Source of the DNA: Pseudanabaena mucicola str. Chao 1806
Lineage (GTDB): Bacteria; Cyanobacteriota; Cyanobacteriia; Pseudanabaenales; Pseudanabaenaceae
Assembly: GCF_030323025.1 (NCBI RefSeq)
Contig: NZ_CP097329.1
Coordinates: 62,001 to 126,000, forward strand
Reading direction: 5' to 3'
Length of the DNA: 64,000 nt
Shown piece after piece: positions 25,789 through 32,395 of this stretch. The notes beneath the pieces were generated by a model, which was given only the letters and a program-made list of their open reading frames with translations, did no database searches and was not told where the DNA came from. A program made the position numbers and the translations under genes. The first letter of the stretch is position 1. Each line of letters starts with the position of its first letter.

Positions 25789-27252
25789 ATGTCTGTTGAT
25801 ATTTCCTTAGAAACCCTCTGGAATCAAGTCCTTGAACTTCTTGAAAGCCAACTGAGCCGCCCTACCTACGAAGGATGGATTAAGACTGTTGTGGCTGACG
25901 AGTTGACAGCCGATCGCTTAACGATTCGTACCCCATCACTTTTTGCTAAGAATTGGTTACATAAATATTATTTTCAAAACATTACCGATGCTGTTACCGA
26001 AATTTTAGGTTATCCTGTCGAAGTTTATATTGTGGCGGCTCCCAGTGGCGAATCTCCCAATAGTCAACCTGATGAGGATCCTAATGAAAGCGAAGGTAGT
26101 CAAGAGGGACTTTTTGAAACAGCGATCGCCAATGAGTCTGTGCAGGCAATGGCTGCTTCTCTCCCCTCTACGAATGTACAAAGCGACCTTCAGGTTGAGA
26201 ATGGCCATAGTTCTCCAAGGCATAACAATCTCAATCCTAAGTACAATTTCAATCGTTTTGTGGTTGGAGCAACCAATCGGATGGCTCATGCCGCCGCGTT
26301 AGCGGTTTCAGAGTCCCCAGGACGTGAATTTAATCCTTTATTTCTCTGCGGTGGTGTGGGCTTAGGCAAAACTCACCTGATGCAAGCGATCGCCCATTAC
26401 CATCTGGAAATCGAACCGAGGGCTCGCATAGCCTATGTGTCCACAGAGCAATTCACTAATGACCTGATTGCCGCAATTCGCAAGGATAGTATGCAGAGGT
26501 TTCGGGAGTTATACCGCGAGATCGATATGCTGATTGTTGATGATATTCAATTCATCGAGGGCAAGGAATATACCCAAGAGGAATTTTTCCATACATTTAA
26601 TACCCTCTATGAAGCAGGTAAACAAATTGTGCTGGCAAGCGATCGCCCACCTGCTCAGATTCCTCGTTTACAAGAGCGTTTATGTTCGCGATTCTCGATG
26701 GGGTTAATTGCCGATATTCAGGTTCCTGATTTAGAAACCCGTATGGCAATTTTGCAGAAAAAAGCTGAATACGATAATCTCAAAATTCCTGCTGATGTAC
26801 TACATTACATTGCTGCTAGCTATACCTCTAATATCCGCGAATTGGAGGGAGCTTTAGTCAGAACCGTTGCCTATATTTCCATTTCAGGCTTGCCAATGAC
26901 GGTAGAAAATGTTGCGCCCGTTCTCAATCCTCCCAAGGAGCCTGTAGAAGTCTCCGCCGAGATGGTTTTGAGTGTGGTGACGGAAATGCTAAATATTGAT
27001 CTCGCTGATCTCTTAGGTAATTCCCGTCGCCGTGAAATTAGTCAAGCGCGTCAATATGTGATGTACTTAATGCGTCAACATACTAATCTAAGCCTTCCCA
27101 AAATCGGTGAAGCTGTCGGTGGTAAAGACCATACAACCGTGATGTATAGCTGCGAAAAGGTGGCGCAATTACAATCTACCGATGGCGATATTGCCCAGTT
27201 GTTGCGGCAGTTAAGCGATCGCATTTACTTCATAGCCCAATCTAAAAATTAA
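25789..27252 (+). CDS. dnaA: Chromosomal replication initiator DnaA
   Basis: DnaA binds origin DNA and melts it in an ATP-dependent way. Domain I (about 1-80) has the usual [22 protein letters not shown]. Domain II (about 85-140) is a variable acidic linker. Domain III is the AAA+ ATPase, starting [22 protein letters not shown], with Walker [10 protein letters not shown] and Walker [10 protein letters not shown]. Domain IV carries the DnaA signature [16 protein letters not shown]. No cluster of consensus DnaA boxes was seen around the gene, in line with the unconventional or loosely used origins of many cyanobacteria. Confidence 0.98.
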
Positions 27253-27253
27253 T

Positions 27254-27775
27254 ATGTCTTCTCTCCCCGTCGGCTTTCCCGCACCCACACCTAATGGCAT
27301 CATCGAAGTCAAGCAATATCCTGCCTATCGCTCAGGGACATATACCTATGAGGGTAATCTGCGTGAAGCAACTGGTTATGCTTTCAATCCACTATTTCGG
27401 CATATCAGTAGTAACAATATTGCGATGACCACGCCTGTAGAAGCTCGCTATCCCAGTGAGACCATCGATCAGCCAGTGCAAAGGGGCAAAGCAAAAGTAT
27501 CTTTTCTATACAACAATAATGGTATTAGTCCCCAACAAATATCGCCAGATATTCAAGTGGAAGATCATCCGCCGATGTTGGTGGTGAGTTTGGGTGTGCA
27601 GGGAGCCTATGGTTATGAGAGCTATCAAGGACATATTGCTAAGTTAAAGGAATGGCTAGCCCATCATTCCGAATATGCGATCGCAGGGGAACCAAGGGAA
27701 TTTCTCTATGATTCTCCCTATACGCCAGCACCACTCAAGCGCCGCGAAGTCCAAATTCCCATTCGCTGCATTTAA
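27254..27775 (+). CDS. SOUL family heme-binding protein
   Basis: A 173-residue protein that starts one base after the dnaA stop, so translation is probably coupled. The SOUL fold is recognised from IIEVKQYPAYRSGTYTYEG, AFNPLFRHISSNNIAMTTPVEARY and the C-terminal VQIPIRCI. Family members bind heme or related tetrapyrroles. In plants, algae and cyanobacteria they are linked to tetrapyrrole traffic, but the role here is not known. Confidence 0.88.
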   Translation: MSSLPVGFPAPTPNGIIEVKQYPAYRSGTYTYEGNLREATGYAFNPLFRHISSNNIAMTTPVEARYPSETIDQPVQRGKAKVSFLYNNNGISPQQISPDIQVEDHPPMLVVSLGVQGAYGYESYQGHIAKLKEWLAHHSEYAIAGEPREFLYDSPYTPAPLKRREVQIPIRCI

Positions 27776-28029: not shown

Positions 28030-30087
28030 TTAGGGAGATTGATTTCTCATCCATTTAAGCCATTGCACCATAGAACTCCAACCATTGAGATGATGTAACT
28101 GGGGTGCGCGAGCTTTGACTAAACTATCAACAGATCGCAAAGCAGCAAACTGCAAACCCAAGAAACTATCAACAGCCGCATGTGGTCCCCCCAAAGTGGC
28201 TGCTCCTGAAGCATATACCCTTCCCTCATGATTACGCAGTTCTGGAATTTCAAAATCATTCGTTACACTCAATCGACCTAACGCATTTGTAGGAATGTTA
28301 TAGCAATCTAGCAAATCAGCGAATAGCGGATTCGTCTGCACCTTCGCATCTAAACCTGTCGCATCAATAATGAAATCTGCAGTTAATTGCAAGACTCCTT
28401 CCATTTGTCGCGGACGAATATAGGTGGCTGTGCGGCGATCGCTCAATTGTTCCACCTTCTCCACATCACCAAAAGTAATCTGATACCAGCCCTCATTTAG
28501 TCCCGTTTGCACAATCCTTTTCCAATCATAGCGATCGGCTGTCGTCGTGCCACCCCAATCCTTTAACAAAGCTTGCCTTGTCTGCGGATCTGCTTCTTCC
28601 AATACTGCGCGTAAATCCCCACCCCAACAAGCCTTAGGCCAGTTAAAAGGTTGAAACTCATAATGATTTTCCACGGTGCGCTGGGCGCGTCCATAGCGAT
28701 TGCCTTGGGCTTTAGGAGATCGCATTAAATGCAAGAGATTAATTTTTTGCTGTGGTGATCGCTGTCGCACTTCATAAATACGTTGTACAATCCGCGAAGC
28801 GACTATGCCACGTCCACGAATTAACACTGTACCACCATGATTTTGTAAATGTTCGTAAATGTGCTCATGTTCCTCATAGCCATTCACCACTGCTCGAAAG
28901 TCCTCAGTTTCACTGCGATATGCTTGAAGATCTGGCAAAAACTGAATTGCCGCATAACCCATAGCCAAATGCAGGTACTTGGCAATTAAAAAAGCATGAT
29001 TCCCACGTCCCAGAGAATAGGCGATCGCATAACGCCCGTCAGTAGTTTTACGAATGGAACGTACTCTTCCATAGCGATAGATCTTGTCCCATCCAATACG
29101 GCTAGCTTCGCGATCGATAGAATCAAACACATGCCCTGATCGCGGTGTATAGGTTTCGGCGAAGTCAGGCTCAGCAAAGACTTGCCAGAGATATCGCCAA
29201 GCTTTGTCAATCTTACCGTGAGTGAAGTCATGCCATGACTCGCGCCATGCGTAACTCGGAAACCCCCAAATATTGTCAGGACAGGAATCAGAATTAGAGC
29301 GCAGTCTTTCATGTAACGGAATTTGCGAATTTAGACATAGGCGCTTGTATCGTGCATAGGGTTGTGGCTCTAAACCAATGGCAACGATCTGATCCATTGT
29401 CACGCCAAAAATCCGTAGATAGTCAGCCCAAATATAACTTCCAAGTCCACCACCGATTGCTCCGTAGGTTGTCTGATGCACTTGTAATCCCAACCCATAC
29501 AAAGATTGAACTTCTACATTCGGTAATTGAAAGAAATCTGGAGGGAATGTTTGATTAGTTTCTGAGCTTTGTCCTCTATTTACAGGCTGTGAAATTGCTG
29601 GATTCGTTTGGGACTGGATTAATCCTGTTTCAGGATTAAAGAGAATTGTGGGATCAGAAGCAGAGAGTTTATTACCTGAGTTACTTGATGAATTCAGTGG
29701 CGATCCTGTAATAATAGTTTGATTCGTTGATGGCAAATCAAAGGTGATCGCAACTTCATAGCGCCCAATCGTTAAGCGATCGCCACTCGCTAGCGTACTC
29801 CGCAATCCCAATCCATTCTCCAGTAAAGCCCCATTTAACAAAACTCCATTAGTACTATTTTGGTCAATTACTACCACATTACCCTGCTCGAATACCAGCA
29901 AAGCGTGGTATCGCGACACCGAGCGATCGCTTAATACTAAAGGCGATACCTGATTGCCATCTAAGTCATTGGGTAAAGTATTTTGGTCTTTGCCAATCGC
30001 GATCGGTAATCTTAACTGCAAGCTCTGCTGCTGATTCGTATTAATTTCCAGCCAACTTAACTGAACCAAAATTTGCATATTTTCCAA
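28030..30087 (-). CDS. FHA domain fused to a Rossmann-type flavin/NAD(P) oxidoreductase-like protein
   Basis: Residues about 1-125 form a forkhead-associated domain, which binds phosphothreonine (VLSDRSVSRYHALLVF, DQNSTNGVLLNG). After a Ser/Asn-rich linker, residues about 195-680 resemble an FAD/NAD(P)-dependent oxidoreductase. The dinucleotide-binding loop is GAIGGGLGSYIWADYL, a second Gly-rich region is TVLIRGRGIVASRIVQ, and DFIIDATGLDA and VYASGAATLGGPHAAVDSF are the usual FAD-contact motifs. The substrate is unknown. The next gene upstream, 22 bases away, encodes another FHA protein, so both are probably one operon responding to protein phosphorylation. Confidence 0.8.
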   Translation of the reverse strand: MENMQILVQLSWLEINTNQQQSLQLRLPIAIGKDQNTLPNDLDGNQVSPLVLSDRSVSRYHALLVFEQGNVVVIDQNSTNGVLLNGALLENGLGLRSTLASGDRLTIGRYEVAITFDLPSTNQTIITGSPLNSSSNSGNKLSASDPTILFNPETGLIQSQTNPAISQPVNRGQSSETNQTFPPDFFQLPNVEVQSLYGLGLQVHQTTYGAIGGGLGSYIWADYLRIFGVTMDQIVAIGLEPQPYARYKRLCLNSQIPLHERLRSNSDSCPDNIWGFPSYAWRESWHDFTHGKIDKAWRYLWQVFAEPDFAETYTPRSGHVFDSIDREASRIGWDKIYRYGRVRSIRKTTDGRYAIAYSLGRGNHAFLIAKYLHLAMGYAAIQFLPDLQAYRSETEDFRAVVNGYEEHEHIYEHLQNHGGTVLIRGRGIVASRIVQRIYEVRQRSPQQKINLLHLMRSPKAQGNRYGRAQRTVENHYEFQPFNWPKACWGGDLRAVLEEADPQTRQALLKDWGGTTTADRYDWKRIVQTGLNEGWYQITFGDVEKVEQLSDRRTATYIRPRQMEGVLQLTADFIIDATGLDAKVQTNPLFADLLDCYNIPTNALGRLSVTNDFEIPELRNHEGRVYASGAATLGGPHAAVDSFLGLQFAALRSVDSLVKARAPQLHHLNGWSSMVQWLKWMRNQSP

Positions 30088-30109
30088 TGGGTTAAGAGAA
30101 TTGAATTAC

Positions 30110-30595
30110 TTAAGGTAGGGGCAAAATACTACTAGCGGCTCCAGCCAAGGAAGTACCACACCAAGGACATACCAAGGTTATCTTTTCATAGCTAGAAATC
30201 TTGGCGCACTTAGGATTTGGGCATTGCAATCCATAGACCTGATTAGGATTGTTATGAGGAGTTGATATAGATCTTGTGGCAGATTGAGTAACAATTTCAG
30301 TAATTTGCAAAACTTGATGTCCCAATGCTATCTCACTATTTTGCTGAAGCTCAATTTCCTGCTGCACTAACCTCTTACCGTCAACAACTGGCGGATTCGA
30401 TTCACGCATATTTCTTAGACAAAATTTTTGTTTCTGTGGGTCAAAATAAATCACCACATGCAATCCTGACACAGTGGGATCGGATAACACTAAATCACAC
30501 CTTGCAGGGTCGCGCCCAATCCGCACCATCGTTAGACCAATCCTATAGTGTTTCGTAAAGCCAGTTTCCACCCACACCAGTGTTAATTCAGACAT
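30110..30595 (-). CDS. FHA domain protein with C-terminal zinc ribbon
   Basis: A 161-residue protein. The FHA domain (about 8-105) shows VRIGRDPARCDLVLSDPTVSGLHVVIYF, with the Arg and Ser that bind phosphothreonine. The C-terminal part has two CxxC knuckles (CPNPKCAKI, CPWCGTS), a zinc ribbon. It is the first gene of a two-gene leftward operon with the FHA-oxidoreductase fusion, and could be the adaptor that recruits it to a phosphorylated partner. That is inference from domains and order. Confidence 0.82.
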   Translation of the reverse strand: MSELTLVWVETGFTKHYRIGLTMVRIGRDPARCDLVLSDPTVSGLHVVIYFDPQKQKFCLRNMRESNPPVVDGKRLVQQEIELQQNSEIALGHQVLQITEIVTQSATRSISTPHNNPNQVYGLQCPNPKCAKISSYEKITLVCPWCGTSLAGAASSILPLP

Positions 30596-30684: not shown

Positions 30685-30733
30685 AGAAATATTTTTGAAA
30701 GTGGCGCTTTGCGCCACTTTCAAAAATATTTCT
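30685..30733. repeat. Dispersed palindrome, 23-bp perfect arms, TTT loop
   Basis: Arms 30685-30707 and 30711-30733 pair perfectly; the core is GAAAGTGGCGCTTTGCGCC. The same palindrome with the same loop occurs at 46811-46859, and one half at about 37625-37645. Flanking ACTACTCAAAGCCT is also shared with the other sites. Confidence 0.9.
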
Positions 30734-30986: not shown

Positions 30987-31415
30987 ATGACACCGACATT
31001 ACTGGGAAGATGGCAAACTCGCCTCTTACTTTTTGGAACATTGGGAATACTGATTACCATTCCCTTTAGCCTAATCAATAGCGATGCAATCTACTTCCAA
31101 GTTTTACTAAGTATTGCTGTTCTAGGATTTATTTGGGATATTGTCTACAATCTACTTCAGCAATTACGTTGGGATCATGATTGGTCAGCACTGTGGCAGT
31201 TAGTCGCAGGAATTTGGGAAGCTTTTTTCTTTTATTTTCCATTTAAATTTCTACTCGGTAATGTCTTGAAATTACCTTGGTTAAGTTCAGAGATTCCCTT
31301 CGACAAGTTTTTACTACATTACATATGCATATGGCTAGTCATTTTTACAGCCTCTCAAACGATCATGCGAGTAATCTTTCCCCGTTGGCGATTTCATGGA
31401 GGTGAGTGGCTCTAA
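30987..31415 (+). CDS. Small membrane protein of unknown function
   Basis: A 142-residue protein with about four hydrophobic segments (about residues 12-30, 37-57, 68-90, 108-128). The second reads IYFQVLLSIAVLGFIWDIVYNLL. The loop LRWDHDWSALWQLVAGIWEA is rich in Trp and looks conserved. I do not recognise a named family. It sits between the MITE and an IS605-type remnant, with no obvious operon partner. Confidence 0.65.
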   Translation: MTPTLLGRWQTRLLLFGTLGILITIPFSLINSDAIYFQVLLSIAVLGFIWDIVYNLLQQLRWDHDWSALWQLVAGIWEAFFFYFPFKFLLGNVLKLPWLSSEIPFDKFLLHYICIWLVIFTASQTIMRVIFPRWRFHGGEWL

Positions 31416-31533: not shown

Positions 31534-32395
31534 ATTTCCCACGCTTTATCGGGAAATTGGGTCTAAAACCCCGTCCTTCTAGGACGGCTTTGTATTAATC
31601 TATGCTATAATATACAGCATAAGATTCTATAAATCGATGTTAGTCCTCGAAGCAAAACTAAAAGGCAAAACAGGACAGTACAACCTCATCGATGAGGCAA
31701 TTCGTACTGCTCTGTTTGTGCGGAATAAAGCTTTGAAGCTATGGATGGATGTAGAGGATAGCGACAAGTACGATCTCAATAAGTATTGTGCTGTACTTGC
31801 CAAAGAGTTTGAGTTTGCAAAAAAGCTAAACTCACAGGCAAGGCAAGCCAGTGCGGAGAGGGCTTGGTCAGCAATTAATCGGTTCTTTGAGAACTGTAAA
31901 AAGAAGATATCGGGGAAGAAAGGTTTTCCCAGATTCAAGAAGCGTGGTCATTCTGTGGAATACAAAACTTCAGGATGGAAGCTTAGTGAAGATCGGAAAC
32001 ATCTAACTTTGACTGATGGCTTTAAGATTGGCAGACTCAAATTAATCGGTTCACGTGACCTTAATTTCTACCAGATAGAGCAGATAAAACGAATCAGACT
32101 GGTAAGACGGGCTGATGGTTACTATGCTCAATTCTGTGTAGATGTGGATCGGCGTGAAGAAATAGAACCATCAAAAACTACGTACACATCACTGTGGGCA
32201 TTGTGGCACTGTATTAGACCGTGACCACAATGCGGCTCTGAATATCTTAGCTATTGGTCTAAATAGGGTAGGGCATACCCAAATTAACGCCTGTGGAGAG
32301 CTCGACCTCTGCCAAATAGATGCAAGTCTATCTGGCAAGTTGTCTCGCTGAATCAGGAATCCCCGTCACTTCAGTGCGGGGAGTGTCAATTTAGG
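31534..32395 (+). mobile_element. IS200/IS605-family remnant (tnpB only, internally deleted)
   Basis: Left-end hairpins lie at about 31534-31559 (AATTTCCC...GGGAAATT) and 31570-31595 (CCGTCCTTCTAGGACGG). A broken tnpB follows, and then the right end with hairpin ATCCCCGTCACTTCAGTGCG GGGAG near 32360-32385. No tnpA is present. The right end, where TnpB guide RNAs normally finish, is also found alone at 51112-51163. The borders are approximate. Confidence 0.75.
31637..32351 (+). pseudogene. tnpB: Broken TnpB (RNA-guided nuclease of IS605-type elements)
   Basis: The first 188 or so codons give the TnpB N terminus and wedge region (LVLEAKLKGKTGQYNLIDEA, SAINRFFENCKKKISGKKGF, GYYAQFCVDVDR). The frame then shifts. 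The C terminus (HCGTVLDRDHNAALNILAIG, NACGELD) follows in another frame to TGA at 32349-32351. About 150 residues are missing between them, including the first RuvC Asp and Glu and half of the zinc finger, so it cannot cut DNA. Confidence 0.85.

Follow-up and report, generated by a model that had tools for sequence, protein, structure and literature searches.

A conserved probable FHA-flavoprotein of cyanobacteria and its predicted four-helix membrane partner at a locus of Pseudanabaena mucicola str. Chao 1806

We analysed a stretch of 64,000 nucleotides from the cyanobacterium Pseudanabaena mucicola str. Chao 1806 (NCBI RefSeq assembly GCF_030323025.1, contig NZ_CP097329.1, positions 62,001 to 126,000), hereafter the window, which belongs to a host genome of 4.53 Mb on one contig. 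Three of its genes are the subject of this text: F, encoding an FHA domain followed by a putative flavoprotein; U, located directly upstream of F on the same strand and encoding an FHA-zinc ribbon protein; and M, oriented divergently and encoding a predicted four-helix membrane protein. Loci and genomes of relatives are designated below by L and G numbers. The genes and their features lie at the following window positions.

28030..30078, minus strand: F, FHA-flavoprotein, 682 amino acids (aa) from ATG 30078; TTG 30087 adds 3 aa
29764..29949, minus strand: FHA domain of F, Pfam match, residues 44-105, SxxH and NG present
29491..29730, minus strand: linker of F, residues 117-196, mostly of low model confidence; a short motif around TILFNPxT is conserved
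28033..29490, minus strand: predicted flavoprotein core of F, residues 197-682, with the fold of two-dinucleotide-binding flavoenzymes
29437..29454, minus strand: first glycine motif of F, GGGLGS, expected site of flavin adenine dinucleotide (FAD)
28795..28815, minus strand: second glycine motif of F, GRGIVAS, expected site of nicotinamide adenine dinucleotide or its phosphate (NAD(P))
28351..28371, minus strand: IIDATGL motif of F
28150..28212, minus strand: C-terminal motif of F, ASGAATLGGPHAAVDSFLGLQ
30110..30595, minus strand: U, FHA-zinc ribbon protein, 161 aa, directly upstream of F
30320..30526, minus strand: FHA domain of U, residues 24-92
30158..30223, minus strand: four-cysteine zinc ribbon of U, CPNPKC...CPWC, residues 125-146
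30987..31415, plus strand: M, predicted four-helix membrane protein, 142 aa, divergent from U and F, with GRWQTR, RWDxDW and R..F..WR..GG conserved

F occupies a single open frame (28030-30087, minus strand, 685 aa counted from the TTG), of which ATG 30078 is the likelier start because the F genes of relatives start at or near this ATG position. The gap separating U from F is 22 bp when measured to the TTG and 31 bp to the ATG. The closest match among the kept named relatives is from Pseudanabaena sp. M53BS1SP1A06MG, with an F core that is 100% identical.

F proteins were compared in an alignment of 127 rows, comprising 125 distinct proteins from fetched loci (including the window protein from the TTG, and with some genomes entering via two records), the window protein from the ATG, and a homologue from the actinobacterium Nonomuraea gerenzanensis described below. 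Searches of Pfam and NCBIfam gave no significant model on the C-terminal core of about 490 residues, a profile of this core had 0 matches among PDB sequences at an E-value threshold of 10, and above threshold the Pfam, NCBIfam and PDB sequence searches returned FHA alone in F. The weak Pfam matches of the core among 30 scanned proteins (FAD_oxidored in 12, Trp_halogenase in 7, a SLOG family in 6 and Pyr_redox_2 in 4, with best E-values of 0.01-0.045) were not used as evidence of family. The flavin/NAD(P) reading of F is drawn from its motifs and its structure model.

The structure model of F was built from a 30-row alignment and has a mean predicted local distance difference test score (pLDDT) of 80.3. 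Foldseek placed the PvdA, SidA and KtzI hydroxylases first (3s5w, E-value 6.0e-16, TMt 0.68). VIA-align gave its highest score to Bdr/YpdA (Z 23.0, 311 aligned residues, root-mean-square deviation 3.0), yet further classes of flavoprotein reach 20-21, in some cases with more residues aligned, among them the flavin-containing monooxygenase (FMO) 4a9w (Z 21.0) and PvdA 3s61 (Z 21.0, 374 aligned residues, root-mean-square deviation 3.8). On this model, we consider it well supported that the F core would be a two-dinucleotide-binding flavoprotein with the fold of PvdA/SidA, FMO, Bdr/YpdA and thioredoxin reductase.

Both glycine motifs are retained throughout the alignment, Nonomuraea included: G209, G211 and G213 are present in 127 of the 127 rows and S214 in 125, and G422, G424, A427 and S428 are present in all 127. 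Just N-terminal to the second motif, E402, H404 and Y408 are invariant. D572, T574 and G575 are each found in 125 rows, the two exceptions being the truncated proteins of L052 and L089. We take the IIDATGL motif to resemble the ATG motif of flavin monooxygenases, and the C-terminal motif ASGAATLGGPHAAVDSFLGLQ presumably resembles the C-terminal FAD-site motif of the same fold. CxxC occurs in 0 of the 127 rows; a thioredoxin-reductase type was ruled out for F on this ground, which does not by itself exclude Bdr/YpdA-like chemistry. The original prediction, made from the letters of the window, had described F as an FHA domain fused to a flavin/NAD(P)-type enzyme, and the Pfam FHA match, the flavoprotein-fold model and the kept cofactor motifs bear this out. 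The structure prediction that it proposed yielded a core model with the flavoprotein fold and the two expected dinucleotide sites, and the FAD/NAD(P)-binding residues, whose loss across homologues it had named as the sign of error, are retained, the glycine motifs being present in 125-127 of 127 rows.

To follow the three genes across genomes, we searched 292 cyanobacterial genomes and found the F core in 47 of them, spread across the phylum. M is present in 46 genomes, all 46 of which carry F, and is thus found in 46 of the 47 F genomes. Full-length U is present in 40 genomes, all 40 with F, and three additional U matches at an E-value threshold of 1e-15 (G085, G087 and G241) cover the FHA part only. 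Fisher p-values for co-occurrence with F are 4e-53 (M) and 2e-42 (U), figures that overstate the association because the genomes are related. The SOUL-domain gene next to the locus, taken as a control, is found in 15 of the 292 genomes, 6 of these with F. The sample's genomes with two F genes (G174, G255 and G284) have two M genes each. Within the Pseudanabaena family, F and M were found in an identical set of 17 among the 35 genomes searched for both; this set includes G308, G316 and G319, where F and M lie at distant places or on separate contigs, and in G308 U and M are side by side on contig C4 with F on another contig. U accompanies F in 16 of these 17 genomes (15 strong matches and one in G319), and in the 18 F-less genomes of the family the U profile gives FHA-part matches only, in G295 and G305. 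From these distributions in sequenced genomes, a partnership of F and M appears well supported.

Gene neighbourhoods were examined in 41 wide loci (the window and 40 fetched loci, 20 of them for matches lacking a separate locus and 20 from the 29 others) and in 80 named loci (the best 80 of 295 relatives found). M lies near F in 34 of the 41 wide loci, including one where it is joined to a truncated F, and 41 of the 80 named loci have it in their stored flank; the F and M genes overlap by 4 bp in L033 and L072. The F::M fusion (L052, G255) was not counted as Rosetta-stone evidence, as F there is devoid of the C-terminal motifs and may be decayed. Outside cyanobacteria, a tblastn search of a plasmid collection returned one record, an 11.85-Mb replicon of Nonomuraea gerenzanensis (Actinomycetota; L163). 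Its F core (505 aa, no FHA) is 37% identical over 491 aligned positions (E-value 5e-100) and matches 0 Pfam families at an E-value threshold of 5, and the end of this gene overlaps the start of an M homologue (35% identical, E-value 5e-25) by 4 bp. A pattern scan of viral contigs found no relative. Because Nonomuraea has the F core and M without FHA, we read FHA and U as an added layer; the simplest view of these sequences would be a two-part flavoenzyme-membrane core on which FHA and U form a cyanobacterial control layer.

The model of M has four long helices (pLDDT 79.8). Searches of Pfam and NCBIfam with M gave no match above cut-off, the sole Pfam match of the window protein being the ion-antiporter subunit MrpF/PhaF (E-value 0.025, below cut-off). 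Conservation among 74 distinct cyanobacterial M proteins and the Nonomuraea homologue peaks at MTPTLxGRWQTR, WD..Y, W62D63xD65W66, E78 and R128..F131..WR..GG, and by the positive-inside rule these conserved residues would face the cytoplasm. Thr2 is found in 73 of the 74 cyanobacterial proteins and is replaced by Ile in the FHA-less Nonomuraea M. The MTPTL start would match an FHA site of the pTxxL type, which we treat as a lead and not as a finding.

In 32 of the 41 wide loci U lies 5' of F in the same orientation, at a distance of at most 370 bp except in L038 (1.1 kb). Of the best 80 of 295 named loci, 77 have U upstream of F in the same orientation, at most 520 bp away except in L153 (5.1 kb); one has it downstream, and in the remaining two it was not seen. 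As this holds for an F core present in 47 of 292 genomes phylum-wide, the F-U arrangement is not a matter of chance. The conservation of the F-U pair across relatives, which the original prediction had put forward as a check, is therefore found in both sets of loci; the prediction was incomplete in that it overlooked M, the partner that tracks F most closely. Among 108 aligned U proteins, the zinc-ribbon cysteines C125 and C143 are present in 108, C130 in 103 (missing in L039, L041, L042, L043 and L167) and C146 in 107 (D in L054), and metal binding is predicted.

U was not found in 9 of the 41 wide loci (L044-L052), which rules it out as a universal part. In the tree these nine loci form one clade (support 100/98) nested among U-bearing lineages, so that a single event is the simplest account, and U was probably lost or replaced once in this clade. 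For the tree labels, L166 and L168 were set as U-bearing though their fetched stretches are without U; a later search found U elsewhere in their genomes (full-length in G308, partial in G319). In 8 of the 9 U-less loci (L044-L050 and L052), a YHS-type gene is located 3' of F and M, in L052 after the F::M fusion; the one member scanned, from L049, matches NCBIfam YHS_seleno_dom with an E-value of 6e-49. A gene that we take to be endonuclease V-like is found upstream on the same strand, usually beside U, in 18 of the 41 loci (e.g. L066:12047-12826).

The Pfam FHA profile (PF00498, curated cut-off 20.7 bits) matches F with 51.3 bits (E-value 1.6e-13) and U with 55.2 bits (E-value 9.4e-15), and FHA was matched in 30 of the 30 F proteins scanned against Pfam with an E-value threshold of 1. 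Among the 126 F rows with FHA, G29 and H58 are present in 126, S55 and N77 in 125, G78 in 124 and R56 in 123; at the GR position, 116 rows have R and 10 have K. The window copy is among the latter with GK, and this position is N-terminal to the Pfam-matched stretch. With six site residues kept in 124-126 of 126 rows, F follows the pattern of a phosphothreonine site. In U, G27, R28, S43 and N67 are present in 108 of 108 rows, with P, not G, after N67, and H46 is present in 106. Judged by these residues, the FHA domains of both F and U look functional. Tandem double FHA domains are found in F of three genomes (G316, G317 and G319; loci L164-L166). The linker motif around TILFNPxT, whose T151 is kept by 120 of the 126 rows, is a lead as an FHA ligand and not a finding. 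In genomes without the F core, frames of about 190-240 aa match the FHA part alone of the F profile, with E-values down to 3e-29 (e.g. G027:C1:3279923-3280267), and are possible relatives of the F FHA domain. The second FHA domain that had been noticed in the adjacent gene is thus confirmed in U; the actinobacterial F core and M without FHA, together with the U-less F clade, tell against placing FHA at the heart of the system.

In L033 and L072 the genes follow the order U-F-M-kinase along a single strand, and the genomes of these loci hold only 10 and 13 Pkinase matches (E-value threshold of 1e-10). Using a catalytic-loop pattern, kinase midpoints were located within 4 kb of F in L033, L043, L048, L052, L054 and L072. 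Kinase linkage was dropped as a statistic, being too patchy and confounded by relatedness. From the intact FHA sites and the few nearby kinase genes, we infer, in line with the original prediction, that Ser/Thr kinases may control the redox chemistry of F.

Other features were noted around the three genes in the window. A perfect 20-bp hairpin lies between U and M (30688-30730); its core, GAAAGTGGCGC-N3-GCGCCACTTTC, was found at 26 genomic places with at most 2 mismatches, against 0 for a reversed-pattern control, and several copies show paired compensatory changes, as in a dispersed palindromic repeat. Just 3' of M, an open reading frame of 195 aa (31637-32224, plus strand) matches the N-terminal half of TnpB and is apparently truncated (guided_TnpB, E-value 1e-22, under the model cut-off). 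Beside the F locus (25789-27775, plus strand), an open reading frame judged DnaA-like from its translation adjoins the gene of a SOUL heme-binding protein (Pfam E-value 1.5e-14), and the maximum of the cumulative GC skew falls within the window's 20-24 kb bin. The region has fewer promoter-like sites than its shuffles do (5, shuffle mean 9.0), and these sites were not used as evidence.

The reading that we prefer, at a probability of roughly one half, is that F would be an NAD(P)H-dependent FAD enzyme that forms a membrane complex with M and that stands, in cyanobacteria, under phosphothreonine control. NAD(P)H would reduce the FAD bound by F, and M would keep F, or a substrate resembling a lipid or quinone, on the cytoplasmic side of the membrane. 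Docked on M, F would act on a membrane-bound or membrane-delivered substrate or pass electrons to one, in a reaction of monooxygenase or reductase type with no CxxC redox disulfide. Through their FHA domains, F and U would bind to phosphothreonines introduced by Hanks kinases, and F, U and kinases would be recruited in this way; such binding might either lead F to M or free it from M, or might open or close the active site, in the manner of phospho-switch FHA proteins such as OdhI and GarA.

Several observations weigh against this reading. No sequence family connects the F core with a known enzyme, so that its chemistry cannot be read off; Foldseek and VIA-align rank different enzyme classes first, and the copies of L052 (fused to M) and L089 are without the C-terminal cofactor motifs. 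No M turned up in the fetched stretches of 7 of the 41 wide loci, within the stored flank of 39 of the best 80 of 295 named loci, or in one F genome, G278 (a draft of 170 contigs), and a Foldseek search of M against the PDB gave no structural match (best E-value 4.5). U is missing in 7 of the 47 F genomes; in the Pseudanabaena family it was not found in G303, whose F sits on a small contig, and its match in G319 is weak and partial. The FHA histidine of U is lost in L113 and L164, where it is Q. Kinase genes adjoin F in a minority of loci only, and Nonomuraea is a single outgroup locus on a long branch.

More tentatively, and with a clearly lower probability, F and M may be the two halves of an undescribed membrane flavoenzyme occurring in two phyla, the cyanobacterial version of which would be wired to Hanks kinases, with F and U as phosphothreonine readers and the docking phosphothreonine on M or on the F linker. 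The concrete docking candidate would be Thr2 of M in MTPTL, with the flaw that this residue becomes N-terminal once Met is removed.

F could alternatively be a non-catalytic sensor of flavin/NAD(P)H redox state that gates M, itself a small channel or transporter, with FHA providing a second, kinase-derived input; NAD-binding RCK/KTN domains gate potassium channels in a parallel manner. We regard this as unlikely. M follows F almost perfectly, CxxC is absent from the F core in all 127 rows, and the only Pfam match of the window M is to the MrpF/PhaF antiporter subunit, all of which would suit a sensor, but the two dinucleotide motifs, like the C-terminal one, are preserved nearly letter for letter, as they are in active enzymes. 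Moreover, the antiporter matches are below threshold, the Nonomuraea M gives different ones, and M has no channel fold match.

The lead of ornithine N-hydroxylases in the Foldseek ranking would fit F being a soluble PvdA/SidA-type hydroxylase of a small amine or amino acid, with M exporting the product and FHA setting only level or localisation. This we hold to be improbable, as N-hydroxylase Pfam profiles match 0 of 30 F proteins (E-value threshold of 1, 13 families listed), the F core profile retrieves none of the PDB sequences at an E-value threshold of 10, and the 41 wide loci show no siderophore or peptide-synthesis set in their 25 most frequent neighbour clusters, most of them tentatively named. 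The biosynthetic genes that we recognised near F, which we take to be LpxA-, LpxB- and FabZ-like, are located 5-9 kb away in 4-5 related loci. Finally, that FHA is a decayed or incidental N-terminal addition without regulatory role, leaving F and M as the sole functional unit, would agree with the FHA-less Nonomuraea core but is very improbable given the retention of G29, R/K30, S55, H58, N77 and G78 in 124-126 of 126 rows, the presence of FHA in all 30 scanned F proteins, its doubling in three genomes (L164, L165 and L166) and the conservation of U.

Should the phosphothreonine-controlled membrane enzyme be the right reading, it would connect the Hanks kinases of cyanobacteria directly with a redox step at the membrane. 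F and M represent two orphan families, one of probable flavoenzymes and one of membrane proteins, and their joint presence and absence makes the function testable by knock-outs.

Among known enzymes, PvdA/SidA/KtzI and the flavin-containing monooxygenases (class B) have the two-dinucleotide fold in common with the F model, and we take the first glycine motif, the GxGxxA-type second motif and the ATG-like motif of F to be in matching order with those of class B monooxygenases. F differs from them in having no profile match, an FHA N-terminus and a near-constant membrane partner. Among the bacillithiol disulfide reductase Bdr/YpdA and thioredoxin-reductase-like flavoproteins, Bdr has the top VIA-align Z for F (23.0, with other flavoprotein classes close behind). 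F is set apart from this group by the lack of CxxC in all 127 rows, by a core of about 490 residues against 323-326 in the Bdr chains compared, and by FHA and M. OdhI and GarA are phospho-switch FHA proteins with, as in F, an intact phosphothreonine-site FHA, and their match to the F profile is confined to the FHA part; unlike these proteins, which act in trans, F has its FHA fused to the putative flavoenzyme itself. To our knowledge, bacterial FHA domains are mostly known as in-trans enzyme adaptors, or as parts of kinases, cyclases and transporters.

We searched the open-licence literature through its top-ranked titles and abstract starts. At this level of detail, FHA and an effector are combined in one protein in Rv1747 (an ABC transporter, with PknF; PMC3908365) and in DgcB (FHA-GGDEF; PMC6733907), and FHA domains fused to cyanobacterial kinases are reported in PMC2176072, which also cites a correlation between FHA proteins and Ser/Thr kinases. 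FHA domains are further treated in PMC7291507, PMC6584798 and PMC7880944, and the substrates of cyanobacterial Hanks kinases are described as poorly known (PMC6985446). No description of an FHA-flavoprotein fusion or of its membrane partner was found in these titles and abstract starts. Unlike in Rv1747 and DgcB, the effector part of F would be a flavoprotein, accompanied by M as a distinct four-helix membrane partner and by U as an additional FHA protein with a zinc ribbon. Both the FHA switch and the flavoprotein fold were known before; what appears new, within the titles and abstract starts searched, is the combination of FHA with a flavoprotein and the membrane partner M.

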